This document shows, one piece after another, positions 198 to 36,675 of a stretch of DNA of 41,558 nt; position 1 is the first letter of the stretch; each line of letters opens with the position of its first letter. The stretch is taken from contig JAISCL010000227.1 of assembly GCA_031265585.1 (NCBI GenBank), positions 1-41,558 on the forward strand. The letters run 5' to 3'. The stretch is from Tannerella sp. GTDB taxonomy: Bacteria; Bacteroidota; Bacteroidia; Bacteroidales; Tannerellaceae. The notes beneath the pieces were generated by a model. The model was not told where the DNA came from, ran no database searches, and worked only from the letters and a program-made list of their open reading frames with translations. The position numbers and the translations under genes are program-made.

Positions 198-403
198 AGA
201 TTGTCGACTTTCTTCATTAGATTGTCGACTTTCTTCGGCAGATTGTCTACTTTCTTCATTAGATTGTCGACTTTCTTCGGCAGATTGTCTACTTTCTTCA
301 TTAGATTGTCGACTTTCTTCGGAAGATTGTCGACTTTCTTCATTAGATTGTCTACTTTCTTCGGCAGATTGTCCACATTCTACATTAGATTGTCCACCGG
401 TTC
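198..403. repeat. Tandem array, 21-bp unit, about 9.8 copies (array 1)
   Basis: The units start at 198, 219, 240, 261, 282, 303, 324, 345, 366 and 387 (last one partial). Each reads AGATTGTCGACTTTCTTC plus a variable triplet that is ATT or GGC (GGA once) in alternation, so there is a 42-bp higher-order repeat. Some units have TCTAC for TCGAC, and the last two are more diverged. The array begins 36 bp after the TolC stop and ends 38 bp before the stop of the convergent antiporter gene. Because 21 is a multiple of 3, several frames stay open; the minus strand would give VDNLPKK/VDNLMKK heptads. It is called a non-coding minisatellite here because no convincing start region is visible. Confidence 0.93.
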
Positions 404-441
404 AACCTGTATTCGGGATAAGAATAGCCCGCGCGGAGTAA

Positions 442-1398
442 CTACGGCCGGTCCATGCTGTATATCGTCAGATAGAGATAAACGGCATAAATAAGTAACA
501 GTAAAAATCCGGCCCGGCGTTTTATCTCGTACTGTTTATTCGTCAGGACGAAGATCAGGACGAGCAGGCTGCCTGATGCCGCGATGCACAGGTCGATTTC
601 CATGTTCTTATAGGCAGGCAGGGGCCTGACCAGTGCGCTTATTCCCAAAATAAAGAATACGTTGAATATATTCGACCCGATCACATTTCCCAGTGCGATA
701 TCCGAGTTTTTCTTTACCGCAGCAACTACAGACGTTGCCAGTTCCGGCAGCGAAGTGCCCAGTGCAACAATCGTCAGTCCGATGATAGCCTGGCTGATCC
801 CTGATGCTTCGGCAATACGGGTCGCACTGCCGACGATCATCTGCCCGCCGATGACCAGCATCACCAGTCCGCCGGCAACCATCACGACCGACAGCGGGAA
901 CTTCTGCTGCTTTCCGCCTTCTTCCGCGTTTTCAGCCGACCGCATTCTCATCGCATTCCGGGACGTCACATACATGAAAAAGGAAAATACAAGCAGTAAA
1001 ATGATGCCGTCTGTCCTCGATATTTCACGGTCAAAGCACCAGGATAACAACAGAATGGCGACGGGCGCCGCCAGGCTCAGCGGAATATCAAATTTGCGCG
1101 ACTCCGCCCGGGATTTGATCGGGTAAACAAGCGCGGCAATACCTAATATGATAAAGGTATTGATCGTATTGCTTCCGATAATATTGGTGAGGGCCAGGTC
1201 GGTCGTGGAAGCATCCATGGCGGCAACCAGGTTGACGACCAGCTCCGGAGCAGAGGTGCCGAAGGCTACGATCGTCAGCCCGATAATCAGGTTGGGCACA
1301 TTGAAACGCCTGGCAATCCCCACCGCGCCGTCTACCAGGAAATTGGCGCCGAATATCAGCAGGACGAATCCCGCAACAATTAAAATATAATCCATCAT
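442..1398 (-). CDS. Calcium/sodium antiporter (CaCA family, YrbG-like)
   Basis: This is a polytopic inner-membrane exchanger of about 318 residues that couples Ca2+ movement to Na+ or H+. The two internally homologous halves of the CaCA superfamily are clear. The first alpha repeat contains GLTIVAFGTSAPELVVN. The second contains GLTIVALGTSLPELATS, followed by ALGNVIGSNIFN. The acidic residue in each GTSxPEL is the expected ion ligand. The frame extends further upstream, but those codons overlap the phosphoesterase gene. The MMDYILIVAG start at 1398, 1 bp after the upstream stop (1400-1402), gives a proper first membrane helix. It is probably co-transcribed with the metallophosphoesterase. Transported ion and direction are inferred from family. 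Confidence 0.9.
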   Translation of the reverse strand: MMDYILIVAGFVLLIFGANFLVDGAVGIARRFNVPNLIIGLTIVAFGTSAPELVVNLVAAMDASTTDLALTNIIGSNTINTFIILGIAALVYPIKSRAESRKFDIPLSLAAPVAILLLSWCFDREISRTDGIILLLVFSFFMYVTSRNAMRMRSAENAEEGGKQQKFPLSVVMVAGGLVMLVIGGQMIVGSATRIAEASGISQAIIGLTIVALGTSLPELATSVVAAVKKNSDIALGNVIGSNIFNVFFILGISALVRPLPAYKNMEIDLCIAASGSLLVLIFVLTNKQYEIKRRAGFLLLLIYAVYLYLTIYSMDRP

Positions 1399-1399
1399 G

Positions 1400-2479
1400 T
1401 TATTCCAGCACAAACGTAAATTCGTCGCAGGAAGCTGTGCGCCATGCATATTGCCGCGTGGTGGGCGAAGCGGCAAACAGCGGGGAGAAGGTTTTCACCT
1501 TCACCGTTTTTCCGTCCGGCAGGAACTCAAGCATCCGCAGCCAGCCGTCGCCGCCGTTCCCGTTCCAGCCGCCTCCGAGCGCCTGCGCGTTAAAGACCAT
1601 TTGATGCACCTTTTTACCGGCGGCATTCAGGTCGGTACGGAACGCGATGTGGCCCTTTTCATCATCCGGTCTTCCGATATGCCCCGCCAGGACAAGCTGT
1701 ATGTTTGTAGAAGGCTGAACCAGCTTTTGCCACAGGGCCGCCCCGTAATTGGGATTTTCGAGCTTGTAGCCCTCCTTTTCAATATGCTTGTTCTCGGCGT
1801 TCAGATAGGAATGGGTGAGCAGGATCACCGTGTGGCCGGCATATTTTTCCTGTGAGATGATATTTTTCGCCCAGTTGATGGTCTCGTCCCGCGGTGCAAA
1901 TTCCATCACCAGGATGAGGAGCTTTTTTCCATGGGGCGTCACATATTCGAACGTCGCGTTGGCCAGTGTCGGCAGACGGTCGCTGTTCAGGCCCGTATCG
2001 CGCAAAAGACGCTGGGTCAGCCGGTTTTTATCGACCGGGAAGTACTTGTCGAAATTCGTCTTGCGGTTTTCGGCGGATCTGTATCCATAGTCGTGGTTGC
2101 CGGTCGTCAGGATGCAGGGCGCTTTCCCGTCCAGGCGGCCGAAAGCTCCGGCAACGGCTTCCCACTGCGACTTGCTGGGCTGGTTTCCATTGATGCCGTC
2201 CGGATTCGGATATTCGTTCTGCTCGACCAGGTCGCCCGTACAGAGTACCAGCCGGATGTTCAGCGGCTCGATGTTCGAGGCTATCCATGCCGTCATCAGT
2301 TCGAACAGCGGCTGGTTATAATCAAACTTAATGTACGTTTGCGGATCCGGAATCATTACCATCGTCCACGAACCGGGATCGCTCAATTGCGGTGGACTGT
2401 ACGCCTCCTTCTGCTGCGCCGGCATACTGATCCGGCACAGGACAAGGGCCAGTAAAATTACTGATAGTCTTCTTTTCAT
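1400..2479 (-). CDS. Secreted calcineurin-like metallophosphoesterase
   Basis: The product has 359 residues with a signal peptide (MKRRLSVILLALVLCRISMPAQ) and is expected in the periplasm or on the surface. Metal-binding motifs appear in family order: IPDPQTY (residues 43-49, D-x-Q in place of the usual D-x-H), GDLVE (82-86), GNHD (127-130), LLTHS, and AGHIGR near the C-terminus. The fold and a dinuclear metal centre are well supported. The substrate is not: the family includes phosphodiesterases, nucleotidases and phosphatases. A -7 box lies at 2506-2513. The stop is 1 bp from the antiporter start, which suggests translational coupling. Confidence 0.87.
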   Translation of the reverse strand: MKRRLSVILLALVLCRISMPAQQKEAYSPPQLSDPGSWTMVMIPDPQTYIKFDYNQPLFELMTAWIASNIEPLNIRLVLCTGDLVEQNEYPNPDGINGNQPSKSQWEAVAGAFGRLDGKAPCILTTGNHDYGYRSAENRKTNFDKYFPVDKNRLTQRLLRDTGLNSDRLPTLANATFEYVTPHGKKLLILVMEFAPRDETINWAKNIISQEKYAGHTVILLTHSYLNAENKHIEKEGYKLENPNYGAALWQKLVQPSTNIQLVLAGHIGRPDDEKGHIAFRTDLNAAGKKVHQMVFNAQALGGGWNGNGGDGWLRMLEFLPDGKTVKVKTFSPLFAASPTTRQYAWRTASCDEFTFVLE

Positions 2480-2505
2480 TTCATTGATGTTTTTAAATAA
2501 CGGTG

Positions 2506-2513
2506 CAAAGATA
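2506..2513 (-). promoter_or_regulatory. Putative Bacteroides-type -7 box for the metallophosphoesterase gene
   Basis: On the minus strand this reads TATCTTTG, an exact match to TAnnTTTG, about 27 bp before the ATG at 2479. No TTTG is found at the expected -33 position, so only half of the consensus is met. Confidence 0.5.
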
Positions 2514-2590
2514 ATTATCCGCCCGGTATTTCCGCTTACCGTCCGGATAAAATTTACTGCCGGCCCGCGGGTTCTTATACTCCGGCGCTC

Positions 2591-4105
2591 TTAATGGGCA
2601 ATGTCTTCGGCCGGGCGGGTTGACGGGAAGCTGTTTCCGGACGGGAATGTGATGTCGAAACCTTTACTTTTCTTTGCGATGTCTACGATTTCGGCGCTTT
2701 TCAGGGTTATTTTCCCTTTTACGAACTCCGGGATGTTATAGGATTTCATAAGCCGGTGGTAAAAACCGGCGTCTTTTTGCGGTAACATAAAGGGTTTGGC
2801 GGCTTTTCCGTTTTCGTCTATGTACGAAAAGTAGGGATGTGTGTACAGTCCGTCCATCCGGCGGCTGCTGAAAACGATCCACCGGCTGTTGCTGCTCCAT
2901 GAATGATAGCTTTCCGCAAAATCACTGTTTGCTTCCTGCAGGGGATAATGCTCCCCTGTTTCAAGGTTGATCATATACAGATCGGCATCCTTGTGCCATA
3001 TAAAGAAATTACCGTAGGCGGACAGGGTGTACAGCAGGTATTTCCCGTCGGGAGAGACGCGCGGAAGCGCCGCACTTTTACCCGCTGCTTCCGCATTGTA
3101 GAGGGTGTCTACGGATTCCCCGAACGTCCCGCTTTCCGGATCGAACGGGATGGAGCATAAACTGTACCTTATCTTTTCAAAATCATCCGGGATATTCCGC
3201 ACGCCGGCGGTACAGAAGTACAGCGTCCGGCCATCCGGCGAAAAGGTGGGGAATGTTTCATAACACTGCTTTGAGAACAGGGGCAGCGCGGTGACAAGCT
3301 CCCTCCTGTCCGTATCATAAACTACTACATCCGAAGCCATATCAAAGACTTCGACCCGGTTCGGGTCATTCATGTGAAAAGCCTGCCGGGTATCATTGAC
3401 CGTAAAGGCGACATATTTGCCGGAGGGATGCCATGACGGGTAAACCAGTGCGGAAATCGTATGGTCGGTCTTTGTATTTAACTTTTCAACCGTCCCTCCC
3501 TGCGTAAGATACGTGCCGGGATACGTTTTACGCATGTGGAACAGCATTTGATCCGGTTCCCGGTTACAGAAGGCATGGCAGTTCATGCAATTATCCCCGG
3601 TCATCCGGTTTTCTATCACGGCATGTTGGCGGTCACTGTCCAGCCGCCGCTGGTAAATACCCATTTCATGCCATAAGGTATATCCCGGCGCGATCAGCCG
3701 GTAGGCAATATACGGATCTGCCGGCTCATTCGCCACGTGCCAGTAAAAAGGCTCAAAGCTCATCCAGCGGCCTTCTTTCTTTACGCAAACGACCGCCCGG
3801 ATGTCTTTTCCTTTGGAGAGATCCAGCAGTTTCCGCCATTTTTTAACCGGGATATGAAAGGAGCCGCCCTTGCCTCTTACCTGTATTTTTTCCCCGGCAC
3901 ATTCCAGCAGGAGGCGGGAGGCGCGGTAAGCGTCCTTTTCCAGTCGAAAGTTAAGCGGGGAAATGTTTTCCGGAATGGTCACATCCGTATAGTCGGGGAA
4001 AATAACGGGTTTCCCGCCGGCTTCTCCTGCAATCCGTACGGCGGGGTCGGAACATCCGGTGCAAACCAGTACGGTGATTATGAATAAAGATAATGTTACC
4101 CTCAC
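2591..4105 (-). CDS. Lipoprotein with CxxCH haem motif and TolB-like (PD40) beta-propeller
   Basis: The product has 504 residues. The N-terminus MRVTLSLFIITVLVCTGCSD is a lipoprotein signal with the acylated Cys at 18. A CMNCH motif (C173, C176, H177) matches a covalent c-type haem site. Four PD40-like blades follow: YPSWHPSGKYVAF, FPTFSPDGRTLYF, LPRVSPDGKYLLY and YHSWSSNSRWIVF. The protein should sit on the outer face of a membrane, and haem attachment would need the Ccm/Ccs export machinery, not seen here. It lies 9 bp downstream of the DUF6057 gene, so the two form an operon. Function is unknown; binding of a peptide or glycan by the propeller with a redox role for the haem is only a guess. 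A structural zinc or disulfide role for the cysteines is an alternative. Confidence 0.78.
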   Translation of the reverse strand: MRVTLSLFIITVLVCTGCSDPAVRIAGEAGGKPVIFPDYTDVTIPENISPLNFRLEKDAYRASRLLLECAGEKIQVRGKGGSFHIPVKKWRKLLDLSKGKDIRAVVCVKKEGRWMSFEPFYWHVANEPADPYIAYRLIAPGYTLWHEMGIYQRRLDSDRQHAVIENRMTGDNCMNCHAFCNREPDQMLFHMRKTYPGTYLTQGGTVEKLNTKTDHTISALVYPSWHPSGKYVAFTVNDTRQAFHMNDPNRVEVFDMASDVVVYDTDRRELVTALPLFSKQCYETFPTFSPDGRTLYFCTAGVRNIPDDFEKIRYSLCSIPFDPESGTFGESVDTLYNAEAAGKSAALPRVSPDGKYLLYTLSAYGNFFIWHKDADLYMINLETGEHYPLQEANSDFAESYHSWSSNSRWIVFSSRRMDGLYTHPYFSYIDENGKAAKPFMLPQKDAGFYHRLMKSYNIPEFVKGKITLKSAEIVDIAKKSKGFDITFPSGNSFPSTRPAEDIAH

Positions 4106-4114
4106 GACAGTTGA

Positions 4115-5875: not shown

Positions 5876-5899
5876 AGTCTGTTGTTTTAAACCTGCCTG

Positions 5900-13548: not shown

Positions 13549-14006
13549 TTCTACAATAAAATTTGTTTAAACTTACTAAGACTCATTCGGAACAGCATCT
13601 TCAAGTATTCACAATGGCTGTTTCATAATCTGTCGTTTGTGTTCATAGATACAACTTTATCACAAAACGTTGCATGATATGGAAATATTGTGCAAAATAT
13701 AGATTTTTTATTACCACGGGATAAAAAGTAGCGGGTGGTAAGCCGGCGGACTGCCGGGTGTACGGGAAGAAACATTAGTCCCTTATTTGCAAAGGGTGCT
13801 TTTGCAGTGTTGCAAAGGGTGCTTTTGCAGCGTTGCAAAAGGTGCTTTTGCAGCGTTGCAAAAGCACCCTTTGCAAATCATGCATTTTCATTCGATCGTA
13901 ATCGAATGCCCCAGCGTTATCGAACGGGAATTGTTTATTCGTTTTTATCAGAATCGACGCCCCCTGTGTCAGAATCCGGTTATTTTAGCCCTTGCGAAGT
14001 AGATCC
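13549..14006. other. 458-bp intergenic region between the small gene and nqrF
   Basis: No coding gene is credible here. The region holds the 23-bp hairpin array (13787-13878) and an 8-bp-stem hairpin at 13889-13908 (CATTCGAT and ATCGAATG around a 4-nt loop). Both lie downstream of the nqr operon and could end or stabilise its mRNA; no T-run is seen after either on the minus strand. The left 180 bp hold the expected upstream region of the small minus-strand gene. Confidence 0.6.
13787..13878. repeat. 23-bp tandem array ending in an inverted copy (array 2)
   Basis: Three direct units of 23 bp start at 13787, 13810 and 13833 (TTGCAAAGGGTGCTTTTGCA plus GTG or GCG). A fourth, at 13856, is nearly the reverse complement. 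Each unit is self-complementary (TGCAAA and TTTTGCA), and units 3 and 4 together form a hairpin, 13835-13851 with 13858-13874, 17 bp with one mismatch and a 6-nt loop. It lies 129 bp beyond the nqrF stop. Confidence 0.9.
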
Positions 14007-15293
14007 TTACGCTCCGAAATCGTCAAAGTGAAGCATTTCGCGCGGAACGCCCAAGCTGTCAAGCATACCTTCCACGGCTTTTGACATCGGCCCGGGACCG
14101 CACATGTAATATTCGATTTCTTCCGGTTCTTCGTGATCTTTCAGATAAGTTTCATAGATAACCTGATGTACGAAGCCGGGGGTATATTTCACGCCGGCGG
14201 CATCTGCAGCCGGATCCGGACGGTCAAGCGCCAAATGGAAGGTGAAATTCGGAAAATCCTTTTCGATCCCCAGAAAATCATCCAGGTAGAACACTTCGTT
14301 CAGCGCGCGTGCACCGTAGAAATAAGACATTTTCCGGTCGGTCGTATGAAGTGTCTTTGTCAGGTGCATGATCTGCGCACGCAAGGGAGCCATGCCGGCG
14401 CCGCCGCCGATCCACATCATTTCGCGTTTCGAGTCGAAAACCGGGAAGAAGTCCCCGTAAGGGCCACTCATCTTCACTTTATCCCCGGGCTTCAATGTAA
14501 AGATATAGGAAGACGCAATGCCCGGCATCACATCCATGAAGCCCACCTGCGGTTTCGGTTTGAACGGAGGTGTTGCGATACGTACCGTCAGCATGATCCG
14601 GTCGCCTTCCGCCGGATAGTTTGCCATCGAATAGGCACGGACGGTTTCTTCGCTGTTACGGCATTTCAGCGTAAACAGACCGAACTGTTCCCATGCCGGC
14701 AGATAATCCGGCCCGATGGATTCCTTATCAATATCCTTCGCATAATCCATCGTAAACGCGGGAATAGTGATCTGTGAATAGGAACCCGGCACAAAATCCA
14801 TGTGCTCGCCTTCCGGCAGCGCGACGATAAATTCCTTGATAAAGGTAGACACATTCCTGTTGGAAATGACCGTACACTCCCACTCTTTCACGCCAAACAC
14901 TTCATCCGGCACTTTGATCGCCATATCTGCCTTCACTTTTACCTGGCATCCCAAACGCCAGTTTGCCTGAATCTGTTTCCGTGAGAAGAAGCCGGTTTCC
15001 GTCGGAAGGATATTGCCTCCGCCTTCCGGTATCCGGCACCGGCACTGACCGCAGCTTCCACTGCCGCCACAGGCGGAAGACAGGAAGATCCCCTGGCTCT
15101 GAAGCGTACTTAACACAGTACCTCCCATGGGTGTTTCAAACTCTTTTTCACCGTTCACTGTCACTTTCACATTTCCGGATGGAAGTAACTTTGCTTTTGC
15201 AAGCAACAGGGCGCCGACCAGAATCAGCGTGATCAGCAGAAAGATCACCGCTCCGGCCATAATTGTAAGTCCGCCCGACATTAATAGTATCAT
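14007..15293 (-). CDS. nqrF: Na+-translocating NADH:quinone reductase subunit F
   Basis: A 428-residue subunit that takes electrons from NADH. An N-terminal membrane helix (about 8-34) anchors a plant-type [2Fe-2S] domain with C75, C81, C84 and C116 (SACGGSGSCGQC; RLGCQV). A ferredoxin-reductase-like FAD domain follows (RAYSMANYP and GPYGDFFP), then the NADH domain (MWIGGGAGMAPLRAQI and YYMCGPGPMSKAV). The length and order match canonical NqrF. It is the last gene of nqrABCDEF, 27 bp after nqrE. Confidence 0.97.
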   Translation of the reverse strand: MILLMSGGLTIMAGAVIFLLITLILVGALLLAKAKLLPSGNVKVTVNGEKEFETPMGGTVLSTLQSQGIFLSSACGGSGSCGQCRCRIPEGGGNILPTETGFFSRKQIQANWRLGCQVKVKADMAIKVPDEVFGVKEWECTVISNRNVSTFIKEFIVALPEGEHMDFVPGSYSQITIPAFTMDYAKDIDKESIGPDYLPAWEQFGLFTLKCRNSEETVRAYSMANYPAEGDRIMLTVRIATPPFKPKPQVGFMDVMPGIASSYIFTLKPGDKVKMSGPYGDFFPVFDSKREMMWIGGGAGMAPLRAQIMHLTKTLHTTDRKMSYFYGARALNEVFYLDDFLGIEKDFPNFTFHLALDRPDPAADAAGVKYTPGFVHQVIYETYLKDHEEPEEIEYYMCGPGPMSKAVEGMLDSLGVPREMLHFDDFGA

Positions 15294-15320
15294 TTTATAG
15301 ATCCGTTTTTACGTTAATAA

Positions 15321-15938
15321 TTAGATGTTCAGTCCCGAGAAACACATAAATCCGATGCCCATCAAACCGGTGATGATGAATGCGATTCCCAATCCCCTTA
15401 AGGGTTTCGGGATATTCGAATAGGCCAGTTTTTCACGGACAGCAGCCATTCCCAAAATAGCGACCAGCCAGCCGATACCCGAACCCAGCCCGTAAACAGT
15501 AGCCTCTCCGACATTTATAAAGGCTTTTTGCTGCATAAACAGGGAACCTCCCATGATGGCGCAGTTTACAGCGATCAGCGGCAGGAAGATTCCCAGCGAG
15601 GCATATAAAGACGGAAGGAATTTCTCAACGACCATCTCTACCAGTTGTGTAAACGAGGCGATGATGGCTATAAAGATAATGAAAGACAAAAAACTCAGAT
15701 TGACCTCCGCATACTGCGAACCCAGCCACTTCAGCGCGCCCTCCTTCAATACGTAGTTTTCCAGCAGGTAGTTGATCGGCAGCGTGCAGACAAGGATAAA
15801 CGTAACGGCTATCCCTAACCCCAGTGCGGTCTTTACATTCTTGGAAACGGCAAGATACGAACACATACCCAGATAGTATGCGAAAATCATGTTTTCAACA
15901 AAAATCGACCGTATGAATGTGCTTACTATTTGTTCCAT
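15321..15938 (-). CDS. nqrE: Na+-translocating NADH:quinone reductase subunit E
   Basis: A 205-residue, six-helix membrane subunit. It carries the two conserved cysteines expected to bind the intramembrane iron-sulfur centre shared with NqrD, in YYLGMCSYLAVSKNV and IAVNCAIMGGSLFM. It is homologous to RnfA at 35721-36293 (LGICPFLGVSKKI and TTNCAILGVAI), which shows the common origin of the two complexes within one window. It lies between nqrD (28 bp) and nqrF (27 bp). Confidence 0.96.
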   Translation of the reverse strand: MEQIVSTFIRSIFVENMIFAYYLGMCSYLAVSKNVKTALGLGIAVTFILVCTLPINYLLENYVLKEGALKWLGSQYAEVNLSFLSFIIFIAIIASFTQLVEMVVEKFLPSLYASLGIFLPLIAVNCAIMGGSLFMQQKAFINVGEATVYGLGSGIGWLVAILGMAAVREKLAYSNIPKPLRGLGIAFIITGLMGIGFMCFSGLNI

Positions 15939-15966
15939 TCTGTTTCGTTATTTTTTATGTTCAGCA

Positions 15967-16599
15967 TTAATTTTCTTCCTGAAGATCCTTATTCCTCGAA
16001 CGGTGCACCCAGATAATGACCGCCACGCAAATCAAAGCCATCGGCGGCATAATCATCAGCCCGTTATTTACATAACCGGCATCATAGACTGCCTGGGGTA
16101 TTATCTGATAACCAAAAAGCGTCCCCGAGCCTAACAGCTCACGGAAAAACGCAACAATCACCAGGATAATTCCATACCCCAGGCCATTGCCGATCCCGTC
16201 CAGGAAGGAAGGCCACGGGCCGTTTCCCAAAGCAAAGGCTTCCAGGCGTCCCATCAGAATGCAGTTTGTGATGATCAAACCGATAAATACCGACAGCTGT
16301 TTACTTACATCATAAGCAAACGCTTTTAGAAATTCGCTGACAACAGTCACCAGGGCTGCTACCACGACTAACTGTACGATGATACGGATCCGGTTCGGAA
16401 TTGTATTTCTGATTAATGAGATAATTACATTTGCAAACGCAACGACGGCGGTCACAGAAAGGGCCATCACGATAGCAGGCTCCAGTTTTGCCGTCACAGC
16501 CAACGCAGAACAGATCCCGAGCATCTGAATAATGACCGGATTATTCCTGCTTAACGGGCCTAACAATATTTCTTTATTTTTTCCGGATAATAGTCCCAT
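15967..16599 (-). CDS. nqrD: Na+-translocating NADH:quinone reductase subunit D
   Basis: A 210-residue, six-helix membrane subunit and inverted-topology partner of NqrE. Cysteines in LGICSALAVTAKL and IITNCILMGRLEAFA match the intramembrane iron-sulfur ligands. The C-terminus is short and polar (RSRNKDLQEEN). It is homologous to RnfE at 35100-35687. It starts 6 bp after the nqrC stop. Confidence 0.96.
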   Translation of the reverse strand: MGLLSGKNKEILLGPLSRNNPVIIQMLGICSALAVTAKLEPAIVMALSVTAVVAFANVIISLIRNTIPNRIRIIVQLVVVAALVTVVSEFLKAFAYDVSKQLSVFIGLIITNCILMGRLEAFALGNGPWPSFLDGIGNGLGYGIILVIVAFFRELLGSGTLFGYQIIPQAVYDAGYVNNGLMIMPPMALICVAVIIWVHRSRNKDLQEEN

Positions 16600-16605
16600 A
16601 ATCCT

Positions 16606-17286
16606 CTATTTTTTAGCATTTAAAAATTCAACATAACGATCCAGGCTGCTCCTGATCATCTGATCAACCCCGTTACTGGTAATCGTGCCTCCTGATATTC
16701 CGTCCACATAATCCTGTCCCTGAAGCGTCTTGCCCGGCTTCACAACGGTAATACTCTTAAATTCATTATTCTTAAACAGTTGCTTGCCGGAAAACTGCAA
16801 ACGGAAAGCCGGACCCGCAATCTCGGCGCCTAATCCGGGAGTTTCTCCCTGATGACTGAAATCGGCTCCATATACCGTATTTTTGTCGTCATTCATGGCG
16901 ATATATCCCCAGACAGGCCCCCAAAGACCGCTTCCGTACAGAACAAGGATATATTTTGTCTGCCCGTCTACATTGGCCACAAACACAGGATACTGATTCT
17001 CAACAAACATTTTGGAGGCGTCGGCGGCAAAAGCGTCTCCCTCGACTTGCCGGCCATTATTATCCACCAGAAACGATTCCTTTATCAGCTCGTTATATTT
17101 CGCTTCCGTTTCACCTCCGGAAACAGAGACGTTAACCGAGCGCAATATTTGCTGCCGTTTATCATTTGCTTCATTTTTTTTCTGGTAGCTTCTTAACGAC
17201 TCGGAAGTAAAAGCCAGCAGCGCCGCAACCAGAACAACCATCACGGAAGCATATATAATAGTGTATGCATTACTCTCTCTGTTCAT
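16606..17286 (-). CDS. nqrC: Na+-translocating NADH:quinone reductase subunit C
   Basis: A 226-residue subunit with one N-terminal helix (about 8-28) and a periplasmic FMN-binding domain. FMN is expected on T201 by phosphoester linkage, made by ApbE (not in the window). The site reads DGISGGTITS, with Gly where many proteins have Ala (SGAT). Upstream is the conserved HQGETPGLGAEI. Electrons pass from NqrD/E to this FMN and then to NqrB. Confidence 0.96.
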   Translation of the reverse strand: MNRESNAYTIIYASVMVVLVAALLAFTSESLRSYQKKNEANDKRQQILRSVNVSVSGGETEAKYNELIKESFLVDNNGRQVEGDAFAADASKMFVENQYPVFVANVDGQTKYILVLYGSGLWGPVWGYIAMNDDKNTVYGADFSHQGETPGLGAEIAGPAFRLQFSGKQLFKNNEFKSITVVKPGKTLQGQDYVDGISGGTITSNGVDQMIRSSLDRYVEFLNAKK

Positions 17287-17305
17287 AATCTTTCGTATTA
17301 TAAAA

Positions 17306-18508
17306 TTAGCTTGCGACCCTTTTCAGACGGCGTTTGATATTGCTTTCAACCACACAGTAGTCGATCAAAGGTGCAAATGTATTCATTAACAAAATGGCAA
17401 GCATCATTCCTTCGGGATAGCCCGGGTTCAGCGCCCGGATAATAATCGCAAAGGCTCCCACGAGTAAACCGTAAATATATTTACCGGTCTCCGTACGGGC
17501 TGAAGTGACCGGATCCGTAGCCATAAATACAGCTCCAAAGGCAAATCCTCCCAAAAACAAATGATCGACCGGAGAAACCGTCATCACAACGGTGGTCCCT
17601 ATCAGGTTAAAGACAGCCGCCATCACTGCGCCACCTGCAAACACGGAAAACATGGTTTTCCAGCTGGCCACTCCTGTAAATAACAGGATGGCAGCGCCGA
17701 TCAAAATGGCCAGCACAGACGTTTCACCGATGGAACCCGGAATCAGCCCGATAAAATAATCCCAGGTTGTCAGCGGCTGTCCCAATACATCCACCGTCTG
17801 GAATGAACCGATCGCCTCTTTGGCCGCTGTTCCGATCTGTCCCAGCGGGGTCGCTCCGGAGAAAGCATCCAGCACGTTGGATCCTCCGATTCCGAAAACC
17901 GCGTCCGTCCGGACAAAAACCTGATCGCCGGACATGGCGGCCGGATAGGCAAAGAACAGAAAAGCGCGTGTCACCAGCGCCACATTAAATACATTATAAC
18001 CCGTTCCCCCGAATACTTCCTTCGCAAAAACGACTGCAAATGCCGTCGCTACAGCGATCATCCACAGGGGCGTATCAATCGGTACGATCATCGGGATCAA
18101 CATGCCGGATACAAGAAATCCTTCCTGTATTTCCTCCTTTTTCCATTGAGCCACAATAAACTCAATCCCCAGCCCGACCACATACGAAACAACGATCTTC
18201 GGCAATACAGCCAGTAAGCCGTAAACAAAAGTCATCCAGAATCCCGGATGCAAGCCTGTCGCCAGATTATGCTGATAGCCGATATTGTACATGCCGAACA
18301 GCAGGGCAGGCATCAGTCCCGCGATCACGACCGACATGATCCGTTTCGAGTCGATACTGTCATGAATATGCACTCCTGACGTTGCAGTCTTGTTCGGAAC
18401 GAATAAAAACGTATCGAATCCGTCAAAAACCGATCGGAACATCGACAGCTTACCCCCTTCTTCAAAGTTAGGTTTAATCTTGTTGAGAAAATTCCTTAAC
18501 GCTTTCAC
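17306..18508 (-). CDS. nqrB: Na+-translocating NADH:quinone reductase subunit B
   Basis: A 400-residue membrane subunit with about ten helices, carrying FMN and riboflavin and the main ion path. The covalent FMN site is canonical: DAFSGATPLGQ with T220. The N-terminal segment before the first helix and the C-terminal ETGKYIYGLLVGAFAIIIRA are family-typical. Homologous to RnfD at 33407-34414. Gaps of 21 bp to nqrA and 19 bp to nqrC support one transcript. Confidence 0.97.
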   Translation of the reverse strand: MKALRNFLNKIKPNFEEGGKLSMFRSVFDGFDTFLFVPNKTATSGVHIHDSIDSKRIMSVVIAGLMPALLFGMYNIGYQHNLATGLHPGFWMTFVYGLLAVLPKIVVSYVVGLGIEFIVAQWKKEEIQEGFLVSGMLIPMIVPIDTPLWMIAVATAFAVVFAKEVFGGTGYNVFNVALVTRAFLFFAYPAAMSGDQVFVRTDAVFGIGGSNVLDAFSGATPLGQIGTAAKEAIGSFQTVDVLGQPLTTWDYFIGLIPGSIGETSVLAILIGAAILLFTGVASWKTMFSVFAGGAVMAAVFNLIGTTVVMTVSPVDHLFLGGFAFGAVFMATDPVTSARTETGKYIYGLLVGAFAIIIRALNPGYPEGMMLAILLMNTFAPLIDYCVVESNIKRRLKRVAS

Positions 18509-18529
18509 TATGATTTATTTATTAATTTG

Positions 18530-19876
18530 TTAATTCAGTTCCTTATACAGCAAATCAAGTCCGTTACGAACGATTTTCTGTATTTCAATCTTCGACGTAT
18601 CCACAAACTCGCACAATGCAAAATCCTCCGGTGCCACTTCATATATACCCAGATTCTCCATTTTATCTATATCAAACGCAATAATCGCCTTCAATAAATA
18701 TTCCGGCAGGATATCCATCGGGAAGACTTTATCGTATTCGTTTGACATAATCATGGCGCGTTTCCCTCCACGTATCCGCGCGTCAAGCACATATTCCTTA
18801 TTCTTGCCGGACAGCCAGCTGAGATAGGTATGGCTCACACTGAATTTCCCGAATCCGGGAGTAGCCCAGCCGACAAATTCGTCGACGTCATCCCCTTCAG
18901 GTATTGCCGTCAGCTGATTATCGTACGCCCCGAGGAAATCGTCCGGGCCGACCTTCGTTCCGGTCAGTACATTGCCGCTGATTAAACGTACATGCCCTTC
19001 CGATACGTTTCCGTCCATGATACTGCGTACGGTACATCCGGCTATGACTTTCGCATATCCGCACTTCTTGAACTCCGGGCCTGTCAGCGCGATCACTTTG
19101 GTAAAATCAACTTTCTTTTCTTTCAGCAAACGTCCCATCATAAGGACATCCGTCGCATGAACCGTCCAGACTACCTCACCTTTGTTTACCGGTTTGATAT
19201 GATTGATCAGAACGCCTGCATTTCCCACAGGATGCGGGCCGGAAAGTTCCACTACTTCCACATCTCTCACTGTACGCAAGTCCGAACCCTGCCTGACCCC
19301 GAAATAAACCTTCCCTCCGGTAAGTTTGGCGAGTGCACTCAATCCTGTCTGCAAAGCATCTTCCTGCCCCTTTACGACAAAATCAAAGTCCGGAGCTAAA
19401 GGAGCAGAATTATAAGCCGTCACAAAAATATCGCGCGGCGTATCCGACGGATTAGCCACGCGATCATAAGGACGCTGTTTTATAAAAGGCCACATTCCCT
19501 TCGCCAGTAAAAGCGCCTTTAATCCTTCCGCATCATACGAAGAAACATCTTTTATGTCAAATGATTCATATTCAATCAGCTCGTCCGGCTTAACCGTAAT
19601 GCTCAATATTTTACGCTTTTCTCCACGGTTCACACCCGTAACGGTTCCGCTGACCGGCGAAACAAATTTTATTTCCGGACGACCCTTATCAATCATCAGC
19701 GGAGTACCGGCTTTTACACGGTCTCCTTCACGGACAAGCGCCTTAGGCGTTATTCCGACGTAATGATCGGGAACAATTGCATAACTTTCGGATTTGCCAA
19801 CATCAAAAAACGCCTCCGGAGCTTTCCCCTTCAGGTTTATGTCTAATCCTTTCCTGATTTTAATAAACTTTGCCAT
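18530..19876 (-). CDS. nqrA: Na+-translocating NADH:quinone reductase subunit A
   Basis: A 448-residue cytoplasmic-face subunit, first gene of the operon. The N-terminus KIRKGLDINLKGKAPEAF and the biotinyl-like DRVKAGTPLMIDKGRPEIKF followed by SPVSGTVTGVNRGEKRK are diagnostic of NqrA and related to RnfC. No redox cofactor is expected; it helps bind quinone together with NqrB. The -7 box at 19915-19922 lies about 40 bp upstream. Confidence 0.97.
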   Translation of the reverse strand: MAKFIKIRKGLDINLKGKAPEAFFDVGKSESYAIVPDHYVGITPKALVREGDRVKAGTPLMIDKGRPEIKFVSPVSGTVTGVNRGEKRKILSITVKPDELIEYESFDIKDVSSYDAEGLKALLLAKGMWPFIKQRPYDRVANPSDTPRDIFVTAYNSAPLAPDFDFVVKGQEDALQTGLSALAKLTGGKVYFGVRQGSDLRTVRDVEVVELSGPHPVGNAGVLINHIKPVNKGEVVWTVHATDVLMMGRLLKEKKVDFTKVIALTGPEFKKCGYAKVIAGCTVRSIMDGNVSEGHVRLISGNVLTGTKVGPDDFLGAYDNQLTAIPEGDDVDEFVGWATPGFGKFSVSHTYLSWLSGKNKEYVLDARIRGGKRAMIMSNEYDKVFPMDILPEYLLKAIIAFDIDKMENLGIYEVAPEDFALCEFVDTSKIEIQKIVRNGLDLLYKELN

Positions 19877-29996: not shown

Positions 29997-30090
29997 GTCC
30001 GGGCGGACAAACAGTCTTTGTTCGCCTGGACAAAAGGTCTCTCATGGGAGGATGAGAGAGTCTCTCAAGGAAGGATGAGAACGTCTCTCG
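29997..30090. repeat. 23-bp array of hairpin-forming units (array 4)
   Basis: Units start at 30014, 30037, 30060 and 30083 (last one partial), with a shorter related unit at about 29997. Each starts GTC and is self-complementary in its own way: GTCC/GGAC (first), TTTGT/ACAAA (30014), TCTCTCAT/ATGAGAGA with a 6-nt loop (30037), TCTCA/TGAGA (30060). Changes in one arm are matched in the other. Confidence 0.75.
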
Positions 30091-31203: not shown

Positions 31204-31211
31204 GTAATTAT

Positions 31212-32066
31212 ATGTATATAGCAATTATTCTATTAGGTATTATAGGAGCCACAGCAGCATTCATCCTGTTTATTTTATCAAAAAAATTTGAGGTGAAAGA
31301 AGATCCCCGTATCGCCCTGGTGCTTGAAGCGCTGCCGGGCGCTAACTGTGGAGGATGCGGATATCCGGGATGCAGCGGTTTCGCAGTCGCCTGTGTGAAA
31401 GCGGAATCTCTGGAGGATTTATCCTGTCCGGTCGGTGGAGCCGGTGTGATGAAAAGCGTTGCAGCGATCATGGGTAAAGACGCGGGGGAGACTGTTCCGA
31501 AAGTAGCCGTTGTACGCTGTAACGGGACCTGTGACGCCCGTCCGCGGACAAGTGAATATGACGGGGCGAGGAATTGCAGCATCGCGGCATCGCTGTATGG
31601 CGGCGAAACGGGCTGTTCGTTCGGCTGCCTCGGACTGGGCGACTGTGTCGATGCATGTACGTTCGGTGCAATACATATAAATCTGCAAACAGGGCTGGCC
31701 GAAGTCAGGGAGGACAAATGCGTGTCATGCGGAGCCTGCGTGAAAGCGTGTCCTAAAAACATCCTTGAGATGCGTAAAAAAGGGCCGAAGTCACGCCGCA
31801 TCTTTGTTTCATGTATCAACAAGGACAGGGGAGGCATTGCACGCAAAGCCTGTTCCAGCGCCTGCACCGGCTGCAGCAAATGTTTGAAGGAATGTACCTT
31901 CGGCGCTATCACGGTCGAAAACAACCTGGCTTATATAGACGACGTCAAATGTCGCCTGTGCCGTAAATGCGTCGCCGTCTGTTCCACGAATGCCATCCAC
32001 GAGCTGAATTTCCCGCCGCGAAAAGCAGCGGAGGAGAAGAATGAGAAACCATTAAACAATCTATAA
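31212..32066 (+). CDS. rnfB: Rnf complex subunit B, electron-transfer ferredoxin
   Basis: A 284-residue subunit that receives electrons from reduced ferredoxin. An N-terminal helix (YIAIILLGIIGATAAFILFIL) is followed by the NCGGCGYPGCSGFA cluster domain. At least four ferredoxin-type clusters follow: CSFGCLGLGDCVDAC, CVSCGACVKACP, CSSACTGCSKCLKEC and CRLCRKCVAVC. This is the long, multi-cluster RnfB found in anaerobes. It lies 4 bp before rnfC. Confidence 0.96.
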   Translation: MYIAIILLGIIGATAAFILFILSKKFEVKEDPRIALVLEALPGANCGGCGYPGCSGFAVACVKAESLEDLSCPVGGAGVMKSVAAIMGKDAGETVPKVAVVRCNGTCDARPRTSEYDGARNCSIAASLYGGETGCSFGCLGLGDCVDACTFGAIHINLQTGLAEVREDKCVSCGACVKACPKNILEMRKKGPKSRRIFVSCINKDRGGIARKACSSACTGCSKCLKECTFGAITVENNLAYIDDVKCRLCRKCVAVCSTNAIHELNFPPRKAAEEKNEKPLNNL

Positions 32067-32070
32067 ACAA

Positions 32071-33399
32071 ATGCGCACCTTTCGAATCGGAGGTATACAT
32101 CCACCGGCAAATAAATTATCGGCAGGCAGGCCGATAGAAACGATAGCCGTTCCGGCAGCCGTTGTCATCCCGTTAAGCCAGCATATCGGCGCACCGGCCA
32201 AAGCGGTTGTCGCCAAAGGAGATAAAGTCAAAGTCGGCACACTGATCGGTAAAGCCGAAGGGTTTGTTTCCGCCCATGTTCACTCGTCCGTATCCGGTAC
32301 GGTCGCCAAAATTGACACGGCGCCCGGCGATTCCGGAACGGCACGCCCGGCGGTCTATATAAATGTGGAAGGCGATGAGTGGGAAACGGATATTGACCGC
32401 AGCGATACGCTTGTCAAAGACTGCAACCTTTCATCCGAAGAAATTATTAAAAAAATCGAAACGGCCGGCATTGTCGGGATGGGAGGCGCCACGTTCCCGA
32501 CCCGGATAAAACTCACGCCTCCACCGGGAAACAAGGCTGAAATACTCATCATCAATGCGGTGGAGTGCGAGCCTTACCTGACTGCCGACCATTCGCTGAT
32601 AATGGAAAAAAGCGAACAGATCCTGGTCGGAACGGTCATTTTGATGAAGTCACTGCATGTCAGTCGCGCCGTCATTGGCATCGAATGCAATAAACCCGAT
32701 GCGATAGAGCGGATGACGGGGCTTTCGGCGGAATATAAGGGCATTGAAATCATGCCGCTGAAAACGCGGTATCCGCAGGGAGGTGAAAAGCAGCTGATCG
32801 ACGCCGTGATCCGCCGTCAGGTGAAAAGCGGGGCGCTGCCTGTTTCCGTGGGAGCCGTTGTGCAAAACGCCGGCACCGTTTATGCCGTATATGAAGCGGT
32901 GCAGAAAAACAAACCGCTTATCGAACGGGTGATAACGGTCACAGGGAAAAAAGTAACCCGGCCGTCCAATTTCCGGGTGCGTATAGGGACGCCCGTCAGT
33001 ACGCTGATCAATGCGGCCGGAGGCATGCCGGAAGATACGGGCAAGCTGATCGGCGGCGGTCCGATGATGGGCCGGGCGATGGTCGGCGCAGCCGCACCGG
33101 TGATGAAGGGAAGCTCCGGCATCCTGCTCCTGACGAAGGAGGAATCCCTGCGGCGTCCGTCGCACGACTGCATACGCTGCGCCAAATGCGTGGGAGCCTG
33201 CCCGATGGGACTTGAACCGAGCCTGCTGATGAACCTGTCCGAATACAAGCTGTGGGATGATGCGGAGAAGAATTACATCACAGACTGCATCGAATGCGGG
33301 TCATGCAGTTATACCTGTCCCGCAAACCGCCCGTTACTGGATTACATACGCCTGGGAAAAAGCGCCGTTACGGGAATGATCCGGGCAAGAAAAAATTAA
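32071..33399 (+). CDS. rnfC: Rnf complex subunit C, NAD(H)-binding
   Basis: A 442-residue peripheral subunit that reduces NAD+. It has an NqrA-like N-terminal lobe (GDKVKVGTLIGKAEGFVSAH), the FMN/NADH domain with GIVGMGGATFPTRIKL, and an SLBB region. Two [4Fe-4S] motifs follow, CIRCAKCVGACPMGLEP and CIECGSCSYTCPANRP. The long Ala-rich C-terminal repeats of some proteobacterial RnfC are absent. Seven bp separate it from rnfD. Confidence 0.96.
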   Translation: MRTFRIGGIHPPANKLSAGRPIETIAVPAAVVIPLSQHIGAPAKAVVAKGDKVKVGTLIGKAEGFVSAHVHSSVSGTVAKIDTAPGDSGTARPAVYINVEGDEWETDIDRSDTLVKDCNLSSEEIIKKIETAGIVGMGGATFPTRIKLTPPPGNKAEILIINAVECEPYLTADHSLIMEKSEQILVGTVILMKSLHVSRAVIGIECNKPDAIERMTGLSAEYKGIEIMPLKTRYPQGGEKQLIDAVIRRQVKSGALPVSVGAVVQNAGTVYAVYEAVQKNKPLIERVITVTGKKVTRPSNFRVRIGTPVSTLINAAGGMPEDTGKLIGGGPMMGRAMVGAAAPVMKGSSGILLLTKEESLRRPSHDCIRCAKCVGACPMGLEPSLLMNLSEYKLWDDAEKNYITDCIECGSCSYTCPANRPLLDYIRLGKSAVTGMIRARKN

Positions 33400-33406
33400 T
33401 GCACGT

Positions 33407-34414
33407 ATGAAAAAAATGATCGTATCTCCTTCGCCCCATATACATAGCGGCGATTCAATAAGTAAAAACATGTACGGGGTGCTGGCCGCGCTCATCCCGG
33501 CGTTCCTGGTATCGCTGTACTGCTTCGGACTGGGCGCATTGATTGTGACCCTTACCTCGGTCGCCTCCTGCGTCCTCTGCGAATACTTTATCCTGAAATT
33601 CCTGTTCAAAAAAAAGCCGGCCATCCACGACGGTTCCGCGATCCTTACCGGCGTCCTGCTCGCGTTCAACCTGCCGTCAAACCTGCCGGTATGGATCGTC
33701 ATTGCAGGCGCCTGTGTCGCCATCGGAATCGGGAAAATGTCATTCGGCGGGCTGGGAAACAACATTTTTAATCCGGCGCTCGTGGGCCGCGTGTTCCTGC
33801 TTATTTCGTTTCCGGCGCAAATGACCACCTGGCCTGTGGCGGGAGCCTTTCCGATGACCTACCTGGATGCAGAGACCGGGGCAACCACCCTGTCCCTTAT
33901 TCATTACGGCGACAGTATCGCGGCGGCAGGCCGGGCGGTCACCGGACTTACGGGCGGCAGCCTGGGAGAGGTCAGCGAGATCGCCCTGCTCTTAGGACTG
34001 ATCTTTATGCTTTCCCGGAAAATTATCACCTGGCACATTCCCGTTTCCATCCTCGGAACCGTGGCCGTCTTCACCGGCCTGCTTTTTGCCGGCGCCATGC
34101 TTCATGCCCATTACACGGAAGGAACGGCGGACATGCAGGCTCTTATGGATTCGGCGAGAATTTATAATCCGCTGATTCATCTCACATCCGGAGGGCTGAT
34201 GCTGGGAGCCGTGTTCATGGCGACGGATTATGTGACCTCGCCGATGAGTAAAAAAGGCATGGTCGTTTACGGTACGGGCACAGGCATTATTACGGTCGTC
34301 ATCCGCGTATTCGGCGCTTACCCCGAAGGCATGTCTTTCGCCATCCTGATCATGAACGCGCTGACCCCGCTTATCAATACGTATATTAAACCCAAACATT
34401 TCGGAGGAAAATAG
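33407..34414 (+). CDS. rnfD: Rnf complex subunit D
   Basis: A 335-residue membrane subunit homologous to NqrB. The covalent FMN site is probably T160 in AETGATTLS (TGAT instead of SGAT). Helices run throughout, with GGLGNNIFNPALVGRVFLLI and the C-terminal YPEGMSFAILIMNALTPLIN typical of the family. It is part of the ion-translocating core. The stop lies 1 bp before the rnfG start, so translation is coupled. Confidence 0.96.
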   Translation: MKKMIVSPSPHIHSGDSISKNMYGVLAALIPAFLVSLYCFGLGALIVTLTSVASCVLCEYFILKFLFKKKPAIHDGSAILTGVLLAFNLPSNLPVWIVIAGACVAIGIGKMSFGGLGNNIFNPALVGRVFLLISFPAQMTTWPVAGAFPMTYLDAETGATTLSLIHYGDSIAAAGRAVTGLTGGSLGEVSEIALLLGLIFMLSRKIITWHIPVSILGTVAVFTGLLFAGAMLHAHYTEGTADMQALMDSARIYNPLIHLTSGGLMLGAVFMATDYVTSPMSKKGMVVYGTGTGIITVVIRVFGAYPEGMSFAILIMNALTPLINTYIKPKHFGGK

Positions 34415-34415
34415 A

Positions 34416-35069
34416 ATGGAAAAACTGAAATCGACATTGCCCAATATCTTACTGTCACTGACCGTGATCTGCCTTGTCGCCGGCGTTGCCCTGTCGGCTG
34501 CCGACAAATATACCGCAGACGCCATCGCAAGATCCAAAGCGGTCGAACTGCAAAACGCCATCCGGAACGTCACGCCCGAGTTCGACAACGACCCGTCCGA
34601 AGAACAGTACAAAGCGGCCGTTGCAGAAGGCGATTCGCTCATTGTCTATCCGGCAAGAAGGGAGGGAAAGCCTGTCGGATATGCCGTTGAGAGCTATACG
34701 AAAAACGGCTTCGGCGGAATCATCCGCGTGATGGCGGGATTTGACACGGAGGGCAAACTGCTCAACTATTCGGTGCTGGAACATAATGAAACGCCCGGCC
34801 TCGGCTCCAAAATGGAAGAATGGTTCCGTGAAGACAGGAACCGGCAGAATATCATCGGACGGAATCTGAAGAAGAACGGACTGAAAGTGGCCCGTGACGG
34901 AGGCGACGTGGACGCCATCACGGCCGCAACTATCTCTTCACGCGCCTTCCTGGAAGCGATCAACCTGGCGGCACATGCTGCATTTCCCGGCAATGCCGAT
35001 GCCGTAAGCGGAGCGACAGGTTTCGTTGACGGCAATCACACCGGCGTAACGGACGGCGAAACCGAATAA
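34416..35069 (+). CDS. rnfG: Rnf complex subunit G, FMN-binding
   Basis: A 217-residue subunit homologous to NqrC. It has one N-terminal helix (ILLSLTVICLVAGVAL) and an extracytoplasmic FMN domain with EHNETPGLGSKM. The flavinylation motif reads DAITAATISS (T172 the expected FMN-Thr), so the usual S-G-A-T is T-A-A-T. A Gly-rich acidic tail follows after about residue 195. It needs ApbE, which is not in the window. Thirty bp lie before rnfE. Confidence 0.94.
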   Translation: MEKLKSTLPNILLSLTVICLVAGVALSAADKYTADAIARSKAVELQNAIRNVTPEFDNDPSEEQYKAAVAEGDSLIVYPARREGKPVGYAVESYTKNGFGGIIRVMAGFDTEGKLLNYSVLEHNETPGLGSKMEEWFREDRNRQNIIGRNLKKNGLKVARDGGDVDAITAATISSRAFLEAINLAAHAAFPGNADAVSGATGFVDGNHTGVTDGETE

Positions 35070-35099
35070 GCGGAATTTCTTTAATATAAAAATAATCGA

Positions 35100-35687
35100 A
35101 TGAAATACTTGAAGATAATCAAAAACGGCATCCTGGATGAAAATCCGACATTCGTCCTGCTGTTAGGTATGTGTCCTACGCTTGCAACCACCTCGTCCGC
35201 GATCAACGGAATGAGTATGGGACTCGCTACGGCATTTGTGCTGATCGGCTCAAACGTCGCCATTTCGGCCATTAAGAACCTCGTGCCCGACCAGGTGCGG
35301 ATTCCGGCCTATATCGTGGTCATCGCTTCCTTCGTAACGGTTCTGCAGATGTGCATGGAAGCTTTCACGCCCGGTTTATACAAAAGCCTCGGGCTTTTTA
35401 TCCCGCTGATTGTGGTCAACTGCATCGTCCTGGGGCGCGCGGAATCTTTCGCTGCTAAAAACGGCGTGATCGCTTCCGGATTTGACGGGATCGGCATCGG
35501 GCTGGGCTTTACGGTCGCATTGACACTGCTCGGCTTTATACGTGAACTGCTCGGTACGGGCAAAGTGTTCGGACTGACCGTCTTCCCGGAAAACTGCGGA
35601 GCCTTGCTGTTCGTTCTTGCACCCGGCGCATTCATCGTCCTCGGATACCTGATCGCAATCGTAAACAAAACCGTCAAGAAAAATTAA
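35100..35687 (+). CDS. rnfE: Rnf complex subunit E
   Basis: A 195-residue, six-helix membrane subunit homologous to NqrD. The conserved cysteines are in LGMCPTLATTSSA and IVVNCIVLGRAESFA and are expected to bind the intramembrane iron-sulfur centre with RnfA. Together with RnfA it forms the inverted-repeat core that carries electrons across the membrane. Thirty-three bp lie before rnfA. Confidence 0.96.
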   Translation: MKYLKIIKNGILDENPTFVLLLGMCPTLATTSSAINGMSMGLATAFVLIGSNVAISAIKNLVPDQVRIPAYIVVIASFVTVLQMCMEAFTPGLYKSLGLFIPLIVVNCIVLGRAESFAAKNGVIASGFDGIGIGLGFTVALTLLGFIRELLGTGKVFGLTVFPENCGALLFVLAPGAFIVLGYLIAIVNKTVKKN

Positions 35688-35720
35688 CCCCGCCGCATAT
35701 CAATCATTAATCATTATAAA

Positions 35721-36293
35721 ATGGAATACATTATTATCTTCATCGCCGCCGTTTTTGTAAACAACATCGTCCTGTCGCAGTTCCTGGGCATCTGTCCGTT
35801 TCTGGGCGTGTCAAAAAAAATAGATACCGCGCTGGGGATGGGTACGGCCGTTACGTTCGTCCTGACCATCGCTACCATTGTTACATTCCTTATACAGAAA
35901 CACGTACTCGACGTATTCGGACTCGGCTATCTCCAAACGATCGTATTTATCCTCATTATCGCCGCACTGGTGCAAATGGTGGAAATCGTGCTCAAAAAAG
36001 CATCTCCCGCACTTTATCAGGCGCTGGGCGTGTTCCTCCCGCTTATAACGACCAACTGCGCCATCCTTGGGGTCGCCATTCTTGTGATACAGAAAGAATA
36101 CAACCTGACGCAATCCATCGTCTATGCCGTATCAACAGCGATCGGCTTCGCCCTGGCCCTCGTCATTTTTGCAGGAATACGCGAACAGCTGGCGCGCACA
36201 AACGTACCCGCCGCCATGCAGGGAGCGCCAATCGCCCTCATCACCGCAGGACTCCTCGCCATGGCATTCATGGGATTTTCCGGCATCGTTTAG
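35721..36293 (+). CDS. rnfA: Rnf complex subunit A
   Basis: A 190-residue, six-helix subunit homologous to NqrE, with the Cys motifs LGICPFLGVSKKID and TTNCAILGVAI. It is the last gene of the operon; the order B-C-D-G-E-A is the usual one in Bacteroidota. Sixteen bp after the stop a 21-bp tandem array begins, so the operon's 3' end runs into repeats. No T-run terminator is seen between. Confidence 0.96.
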   Translation: MEYIIIFIAAVFVNNIVLSQFLGICPFLGVSKKIDTALGMGTAVTFVLTIATIVTFLIQKHVLDVFGLGYLQTIVFILIIAALVQMVEIVLKKASPALYQALGVFLPLITTNCAILGVAILVIQKEYNLTQSIVYAVSTAIGFALALVIFAGIREQLARTNVPAAMQGAPIALITAGLLAMAFMGFSGIV

Positions 36294-36675
36294 CACCTTG
36301 CACACGTTATTCCGGGGAGGCCCTGCAAAGTTCCGGGGAGGCCCTGTGAAGTTCCGGGGATCCCCTGCAAAATTCCGGGGAGGCCCTGCAAAGTTCCGGG
36401 GAAGCCCTGTGAAGTTCCGGGGATCCCCTGCAAAGTTCCGGGAAGGCCCTGCAAAGTTCCGGGGAAGCCCTGTGAAGTTCCGGGGATCCCCTGCAAAATT
36501 CCGGGGAGGCCCCCGTTTCCGACAATTTGAGGATAATTTATTTTACTGAAAACCTGTATATGGTTCGTGTGTGATAATTTTCTCCCGGACGCAGTGTGGT
36601 GGAAGGAAAGCCCGGCTGATTGGGAGAATCCGGGAAATGCCGGGTTTCCTAATGTTCATGATTTGGAATCTCCTT
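36294..36675. other. 382-bp intergenic region between convergent rnfA and the fucosidase fusion
   Basis: It holds array 3 (36310-36516) and 159 bp that contain no credible gene. Long frames across it exist only because the repeat unit is a multiple of three. Confidence 0.7.
36310..36516. repeat. Tandem array, 21-bp unit, about 9.8 copies (array 3)
   Basis: Units start every 21 bp from 36310 (TTCCGGGGAGGCCCTGCAAA plus G). Three unit types, A (AGGCCC..GCAAAG), B (GCCC..GTGAAG) and C (GATCCCC..GCAAAA), follow one another in strict order three times and then A again, a 63-bp higher-order repeat. Length, copy number and period match array 1 (206 bp), yet the sequences are unrelated. On the plus strand one frame reads KFRGGPA-type heptads; it is not in frame with rnfA. 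Confidence 0.95.

Follow-up and report, generated by a model that had tools for sequence, protein, structure and literature searches.

Two 21-bp tandem arrays on a Tannerella sp. contig as probable orphans of the leader arrays of one protein family

Introduction

Contig JAISCL010000227.1 (C180) of the 383-contig draft genome (4.88 Mb) of Tannerella sp., assembly GCA_031265585.1, is 41,558 nucleotides long and is referred to here as the window; it carries two arrays of 21-bp tandem repeats, array 1 and array 3. Here we report that both are very probably orphan members of a class of leader arrays standing just upstream of the genes for one family of ~220-residue proteins: their units recur in such leaders elsewhere in the genome, and a profile search of the window (E up to 1) found no gene of the family and no remnant of one, which makes the two arrays solitary members of the class. 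A 21-bp leader array is nearly universal in the family, and each locus has its own unit. The account we favour overall, to which we give about an even chance, combines orphan leader arrays with recognition of each array by the product of the gene beside it. What emerges is a protein family with a near-obligatory, locus-private and mostly symmetric array before each gene, across several families of one phylum.

Relatives of the two arrays in the source genome

Tandem Repeats Finder (TRF) places array 1 at 194-394 (period 21 bp, 9.4 copies; 42-bp higher order, 94% matches), with final degenerate units extending to ~403, and array 3 at 36309-36512 (period 21 bp, 9.7 copies; 63-bp higher order, 96% matches). 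These results bear out an earlier note, made from the letters of this DNA, as to the existence, positions, period and 42-bp and 63-bp higher orders of both arrays; the gene matches and the sequence likewise agree with it on the spacings of 36 bp and 16 bp after plus-strand stops and on the convergent minus-strand partners. The two arrays do not stand alone: each has relatives in the same genome. A pattern search located the array 1 unit at C3 and C227, and more weakly at C78; that of array 3 turned up at C146. Identity to array 1 is 92% across 169 bp at C3 and 92% across 131 bp at C227, identity to array 3 is 88% across 74 bp at C146, and in each comparison the likeness is confined to the array. 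Array 1 has the same strand sense as the C3 and C227 arrays, and the minus strand of array 3 corresponds to the gene sense at C146; both orphans sit beyond the 3' end of a gene oriented in the array's own sense.

The arrays at C3 and C146 each closely precede a gene that encodes a ~220-residue protein, and the two genes belong to one common family. C227 (L049, 13804-14388) holds a second C3 module in which the promoter region, array and gene tail are kept and most of the gene body is gone, an example of how an array can outlive its gene. The alternating 42-bp order is common to array 1, C3 and C227, so these copies parted after that order arose. A divergent set of array 1-unit relatives, in both orientations, is found between GH92 and glycogen-debranching genes (L018, C78:10615-10820).

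In a search of 24 relatives (15 from the genus), nothing more than single matches appeared: in two genomes for the array 1 unit with at most 1 mismatch allowed, and in three for the array 3 unit with at most 2. Of all genomes searched, the source genome alone has arrays of these units. Of 15 relatives examined, nine from the same genus, none has an array immediately behind rnfA. Other 21-bp arrays occur near, not at, the orthologous sites in relatives: at +614 (L259) and +1076 (L266) after rnfA, and at +83 after the antiporter gene (L286).

The protein family and the frequency of its leader arrays

The family protein has ~220 residues, with a helical bundle N-domain and an Fn3-like C-domain; the members scanned matched no Pfam or NCBIfam family. 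The source genome holds 14 matches by single-protein search and 16 by profile. The family is present in 20 of 25 genomes of the genus, with up to 34 matches per genome (fragments included), and in one of 16 other genera of the order. At least five of 395 phylum genomes carry it besides the source genome, as do at least 18 of 393 order genomes (source genome included); in these two scans the first 7 or 12 candidates per genome were scored and match counts are lower bounds. The named relatives we take, from their isolate codes, to be of termite-gut origin.

In the source genome, an array of 21-bp period stands upstream of 10 of the 14 family matches, compared with 11 of 516 control genes drawn from sampled stretches of the same genome (Fisher P 7e-13), and the units of these leader arrays differ from each other except at C3 and C227. 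The named loci of the species collection (28 loci, several of them from one genome) have an array in 23 of the 24 with at least 250 bp of upstream sequence; L059, L070, L080 and L082 were left out for short upstream sequence, L070 having an array. Loci from relatives with at least 300 bp upstream have one in 25 of 27, a set in which L150 duplicates the named locus L083 and two of the array matches, at L130 and L146, have little more than two copies each; L145, which has an array, was left out as too short. L150 was dropped from the array-anatomy, protein, reading-frame and dinucleotide-run counts. Further loci among the matches listed, picked mostly where ~900 bp of upstream sequence existed, carry 21-bp arrays in 46 of 53 cases, and six of the other seven have arrays of 20 or 22 bp. 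Split by distance, close members have 21-bp arrays in 33 of 38 cases and 22-bp arrays in 4, and the 15 distant members have 21-bp arrays in 13 cases and 20-bp arrays in 2; L210 and L230 (21- and 22-bp arrays) were left out for short upstream sequence.

Outside the home family of bacteria, arrays with a period that is a multiple of 21 bp were found at 13 of 16 testable loci from other families of the phylum (0/1 in G212 and 0/2 in G307; L318 and L321 too short), and at 7 of 8 new loci with upstream sequence from other families of the order (L326 too short), three of these seven arrays being weak (2.2-2.8 copies) and two of the loci nearly identical. The phylum and order counts rest on a laxer TRF score, and the control rate is that of the source genome alone.

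Period, length and symmetry of the arrays

The anatomy of the class was assessed on 106 family leader arrays with at least three units. The period is 21 bp in 100 of them, 22 bp in four and 20 bp in two; the six deviant periods all differ by 1 bp and none by 3 bp, which fits helix phase better than a reading frame. For comparison, a census of 80 stretches of the source genome (~836 kb), with genes called by a simple codon model, listed 26 other non-coding arrays of 20-24 bp, of which 8 have a period of 21 bp. Family arrays measure 67-389 bp (median 200, n = 106; 10 at 200-213 bp) and contain 3-17 copies, and two-unit and three-unit higher orders are common within the class. The idea that a fixed length of ~206 bp is under selection is thus refuted, and the equal lengths of arrays 1 and 3 are a coincidence.

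The units are palindromic as a class. Their summed score stands at z 24.6 when columns are permuted, a test that 55 of 106 pass individually (P 0.05 or less), and at z 15.1 when the consensus is shuffled by dinucleotides, where 22 of 106 do. None of 11 arrays inside genes was palindromic; among other non-coding arrays of 20-24 bp, 11 of 30 were when the four of the window are counted and 9 of 26 when they are not. One leader (L081) contains two adjacent 21-bp arrays (2431-2585 and 2618-2815) with different units and a common ACATGT core.

The similarity of units from different loci stays at the level of shuffled sequence until protein identity reaches at least 70%. The highest protein identity between any two loci compared was 89%, so no duplicates are seen in this set apart from L150. 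The period (21 bp) and the symmetry of the class are thus kept while the unit sequence turns over faster than the protein, in agreement with the earlier suggestion that phase is conserved and sequence is free.

Leader sequences

The distance from array end to start codon has a median of 78 bp (103 loci); 7 of 124 loci were excluded for an unusable start or length. In the 250 nt preceding the array, the box TAnnTTTG, which we take to be the Bacteroidetes -7 element, is present in sense at 43 of 93 loci, in antisense at 14 and at a shuffled mean of 10.4, and many arrays are therefore probably transcribed as part of a 5' leader; at L054 the box lies downstream of the array. The gap between array and gene has 29% G+C, is A-rich at -14 to -11 and is unstructured (mean folding z -0.16).

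Upstream of 3 of 15 members in the source genome there are dinucleotide runs of at least 10 copies, where 0.18 such members would be expected (P 8e-4); C137, which is among these three, also belongs to the background sample. Such runs are possible phase-variation tracts. Over all family loci, runs of 17-30 copies stand upstream of 7 of 124, compared with 13 runs in the 877 kb of sample plus window; their positions relative to the gene are -503 (L045), -393 (L046), -214 (L053), -537 (L058), -545 (L127), -296 (L142) and -512 (L221).

Proposed mechanism

Recognition of the array by the adjacent gene's product would be the simplest common account of the tie to one gene family, the private unit, the symmetry, the two helical turns, the leader position and the loose copies. 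The array would then line up sites of two-fold symmetry in phase, 21 bp amounting to two turns of the helix, and the product of the neighbouring gene would act on them, regulating itself through its leader at the DNA or RNA level. If the array is such a row of sites, its sequence can change only together with the product that recognises it, and a stray copy can be useful as a recognition site for the same protein. Recombination or repair would have carried copies to other places, giving rise to orphans like arrays 1 and 3; such orphans would either put their new location under the same protein or do nothing, and the two arrays of the window may themselves be inert. That the array is a cis target of the adjacent product we suggest tentatively, and at rather less than an even chance. 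Less probable again is the broader proposal of widespread self-addressing, with each protein and its private palindromic array forming an orthogonal pair and orphans putting other genes under the same protein; if protein and array do recognise each other, a genome with up to 34 matches would offer many natural orthogonal pairs.

Several observations weigh against this interpretation. Four of the 14 family matches in the source genome have no array (C283, C137, C282 and C151), and none was found at L074, L131, L142, L204, L303, L304, L308 and L329. Judged one by one against dinucleotide shuffles, 84 of the 106 consensus units do not qualify as palindromes, and for arrays 1 and 3 the symmetry is only weak (P 0.065 and 0.35 in one test, 0.24 and 0.30 in the other). 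Palindromic arrays of 21-23 bp occur more widely, in places with no family gene, so the array as such does not need the protein. Compensatory changes within arrays are barely above chance (29 against 22.1, sd 3.6). G.T mismatches do not exceed A.C mismatches (154 against 202), so nothing points to RNA hairpins. Structure searches with the family protein pointed to no nucleic-acid binder, and the protein is not clearly basic (median pI 7.8).

Alternative explanations

The strongest rival is a contingency device, in which slippage-prone 5' leaders tune or switch multicopy Fn3 genes through their copy number with no specific recognition, and in which leader sequences are private since recombination between paralogues would do harm. 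The number of matches per genome, array copy numbers of up to 17 and the excess of dinucleotide runs upstream of source-genome members all suit this explanation, as does the finding that L046 and L053, two of the three run-bearing members there, have a run and no 21-bp array, as if one kind of repeat had replaced the other. It leaves the palindromes and the fixed 21-bp period unexplained, and we consider it possible but rather unlikely; were it true, the family would be a large phase-variable one in uncultured bacteria.

Neutral minisatellites come next. Hairpin-prone units of 21-23 bp may arise and expand by slippage throughout these genomes, arrays 1 and 3 then being functionless. The arrays of the census, often palindromic (9 individually) and without a family gene, are in keeping with this, and so is the absence of an array directly after rnfA in the relatives. 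The near-universal presence of arrays before one gene family and the sharper 21-bp period there are left unexplained. As a general account it is unlikely, while for the orphan arrays themselves a neutral reading is possible.

Some leaders may be translated, and the array could be part of an upstream reading frame, coupled to the gene, that encodes repeats of 7 residues. ATG-started frames with at least 45 nt before the array span it in sense at 33 of 54 loci and in antisense at 6, though the AT-rich gap confounds this comparison. Every pairwise alignment gap among three homologous leaders is a multiple of three, pN/pS is 0.34-0.66 across four leader pairs, and certain leader frames end on the start codon of the family gene. 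Against a coding role, the units show no signal by codon position (32 arrays, z -1.0), substitutions in the three homologous leaders are not concentrated in third positions (18/22/21, 28/33/35 and 19/27/32 by codon position), and 6 of 106 arrays have units of 20 or 22 bp. Open frames through the arrays are nearly equal on the two strands (107 of 111 on the sense strand, 104 of 111 on the opposite one), and 4 of 111 arrays lack an open sense frame. Translation does not explain the 21-bp period, and a leader peptide as the reason for the arrays is very unlikely.

A module resembling type III toxin-antitoxin systems, in which the array RNA would hold the adjacent protein in check, seems similarly improbable. 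The order is that described for ToxIN, namely promoter, tandem repeats, gene (PMC8860590): the repeats here are private per locus and do lie between promoter and gene, with a promoter box upstream of the array at the 43 of 93 loci given above. The hairpin terminator described there between repeats and gene (PMC8860590) has no counterpart, since a simple test for a perfect stem of at least 5 plus a T run found terminator-like hairpins in none of 92 array-gene gaps of 40-200 nt. Unlike those of ToxIN (PMC8860590), the units are palindromic and 21 bp long; the C-domain of the protein is Fn3-like, whereas the ToxIN toxin has an RNase fold. None of 6 family proteins scanned gave a PADLOC match.

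The earlier note had itself proposed a transcription-collision barrier or a nucleoid-protein platform between convergent genes, to be checked by a scan for similar arrays. Further 21-bp arrays were indeed found; uniform length was not, and the strong preference for convergent sites is absent in the census. Three of the 26 census arrays lie at stretch edges, and the remaining 23 comprise 16 co-directional, 6 convergent (two within one long gap) and 1 divergent. Convergent placement (6 of 23) does not differ significantly from the 26 of 196 intergenic gaps of at least 100 bp (P 0.07) or from the 20% of intergenic bases (P 0.30) that are convergent, and divergent gaps are depleted (1 of 23; P 0.02 by gap number, 0.04 by bases). 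The background counts include the window, and the gene calls are crude: window genes were partly missed and a false gene over array 1 was corrected by hand. Of the window's four arrays of 20-24 bp, three (array 1, array 3 and that at 13787) do lie in convergent gaps, yet with no significant enrichment, variable lengths and family arrays that stand upstream of genes, a barrier or platform is barely credible. For the 21-bp arrays examined, the leader of a gene is the normal setting.

Comparison with described systems

No description of the association between this family and its arrays was found in the open PubMed Central literature (titles and abstract starts; most subscription papers and all preprints fall outside it), and we could match the arrangement to no described system. 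Plasmid iterons are direct repeats of ~20-22 bp on one helix face beside the Rep gene whose product binds them. The arrays resemble them in that direct repeats of about two helical turns adjoin a gene, and differ in having many paralogues per genome and an apparently unrelated protein. REP sequences with RAYT transposases combine palindromic units close to one gene family with copies scattered elsewhere; here, in contrast, the arrays are long and head-to-tail, each gene has a private unit, and no transposase domain was found in the family members scanned.

Porphyromonas gingivalis also belongs to the Bacteroidales. Its BrickBuilt minisatellite is the nearest described thing; it has been described as one named minisatellite/MITE (miniature inverted-repeat transposable element) that has subunits called leader and tail as well as small inverted ends (PMC4596501). 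Both are intergenic tandem arrays of about two helical turns (23 nt there) with dispersed copies in one genome, while the period here is 21 bp and the units, unlike those of BrickBuilt as described, are private per locus and tied to one gene family (PMC4596501). The common array sequence with leader, tail and inverted ends that marks BrickBuilt was not found: units of different loci are similar at shuffle level, and in array 1 with C3 and C227, as in array 3 with C146, the array alone is common.

Features of the window

The genes and arrays concerned are listed in Table 1. The upstream gene names in the earlier note stand in part: rnfA is confirmed, while the TolC-like name at the contig start is not, the 52-residue end of that reading frame having no Pfam match.

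Table 1. Positions of the tandem arrays of the window and of the genes next to arrays 1 and 3
Feature	Position	Strand	Remarks
Open reading frame (ORF), 3' end, truncated by contig start	1..161	+	array 1 starts 36 bp after its stop
Array 1	194..403	+	21-bp units, AGATTGTCNACTTTCTTC plus alternating CGGC/CATT side; 42-bp higher order; very probable orphan of C3/C227 leader array
Calcium/sodium antiporter	442..1476	-	TIGR00367, E 7.3e-70; convergent to array 1
Further array	13787..13875 (TRF 13787-13862)	.	23-bp palindromic unit (generic class); between convergent genes
Short array	30037..30089	.	23-bp palindromic unit (generic class); TRF; co-directional gap
rnfA	35721..36293	+	TIGR01943, E 3.6e-86; stop 16 bp ahead of array 3
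Array 3	36309..36516	-	21-bp units, 63-bp higher order; very probable orphan of C146 leader array
GDSL-lipase / alpha-L-fucosidase domain protein	36676..39615	-	array 3 located 164 bp beyond its stop; convergent

Very strong inverted repeats follow directly after the stop of the family genes L063, L069, L072 and L077, with a predicted fold of down to -129 kcal/mol in 260 nt. The window also contains, at 14007-19876, an NqrA gene with an RnfA/NqrE-like neighbour (15330-15926), and Rnf genes at 31212-36293 within the same 42 kb.

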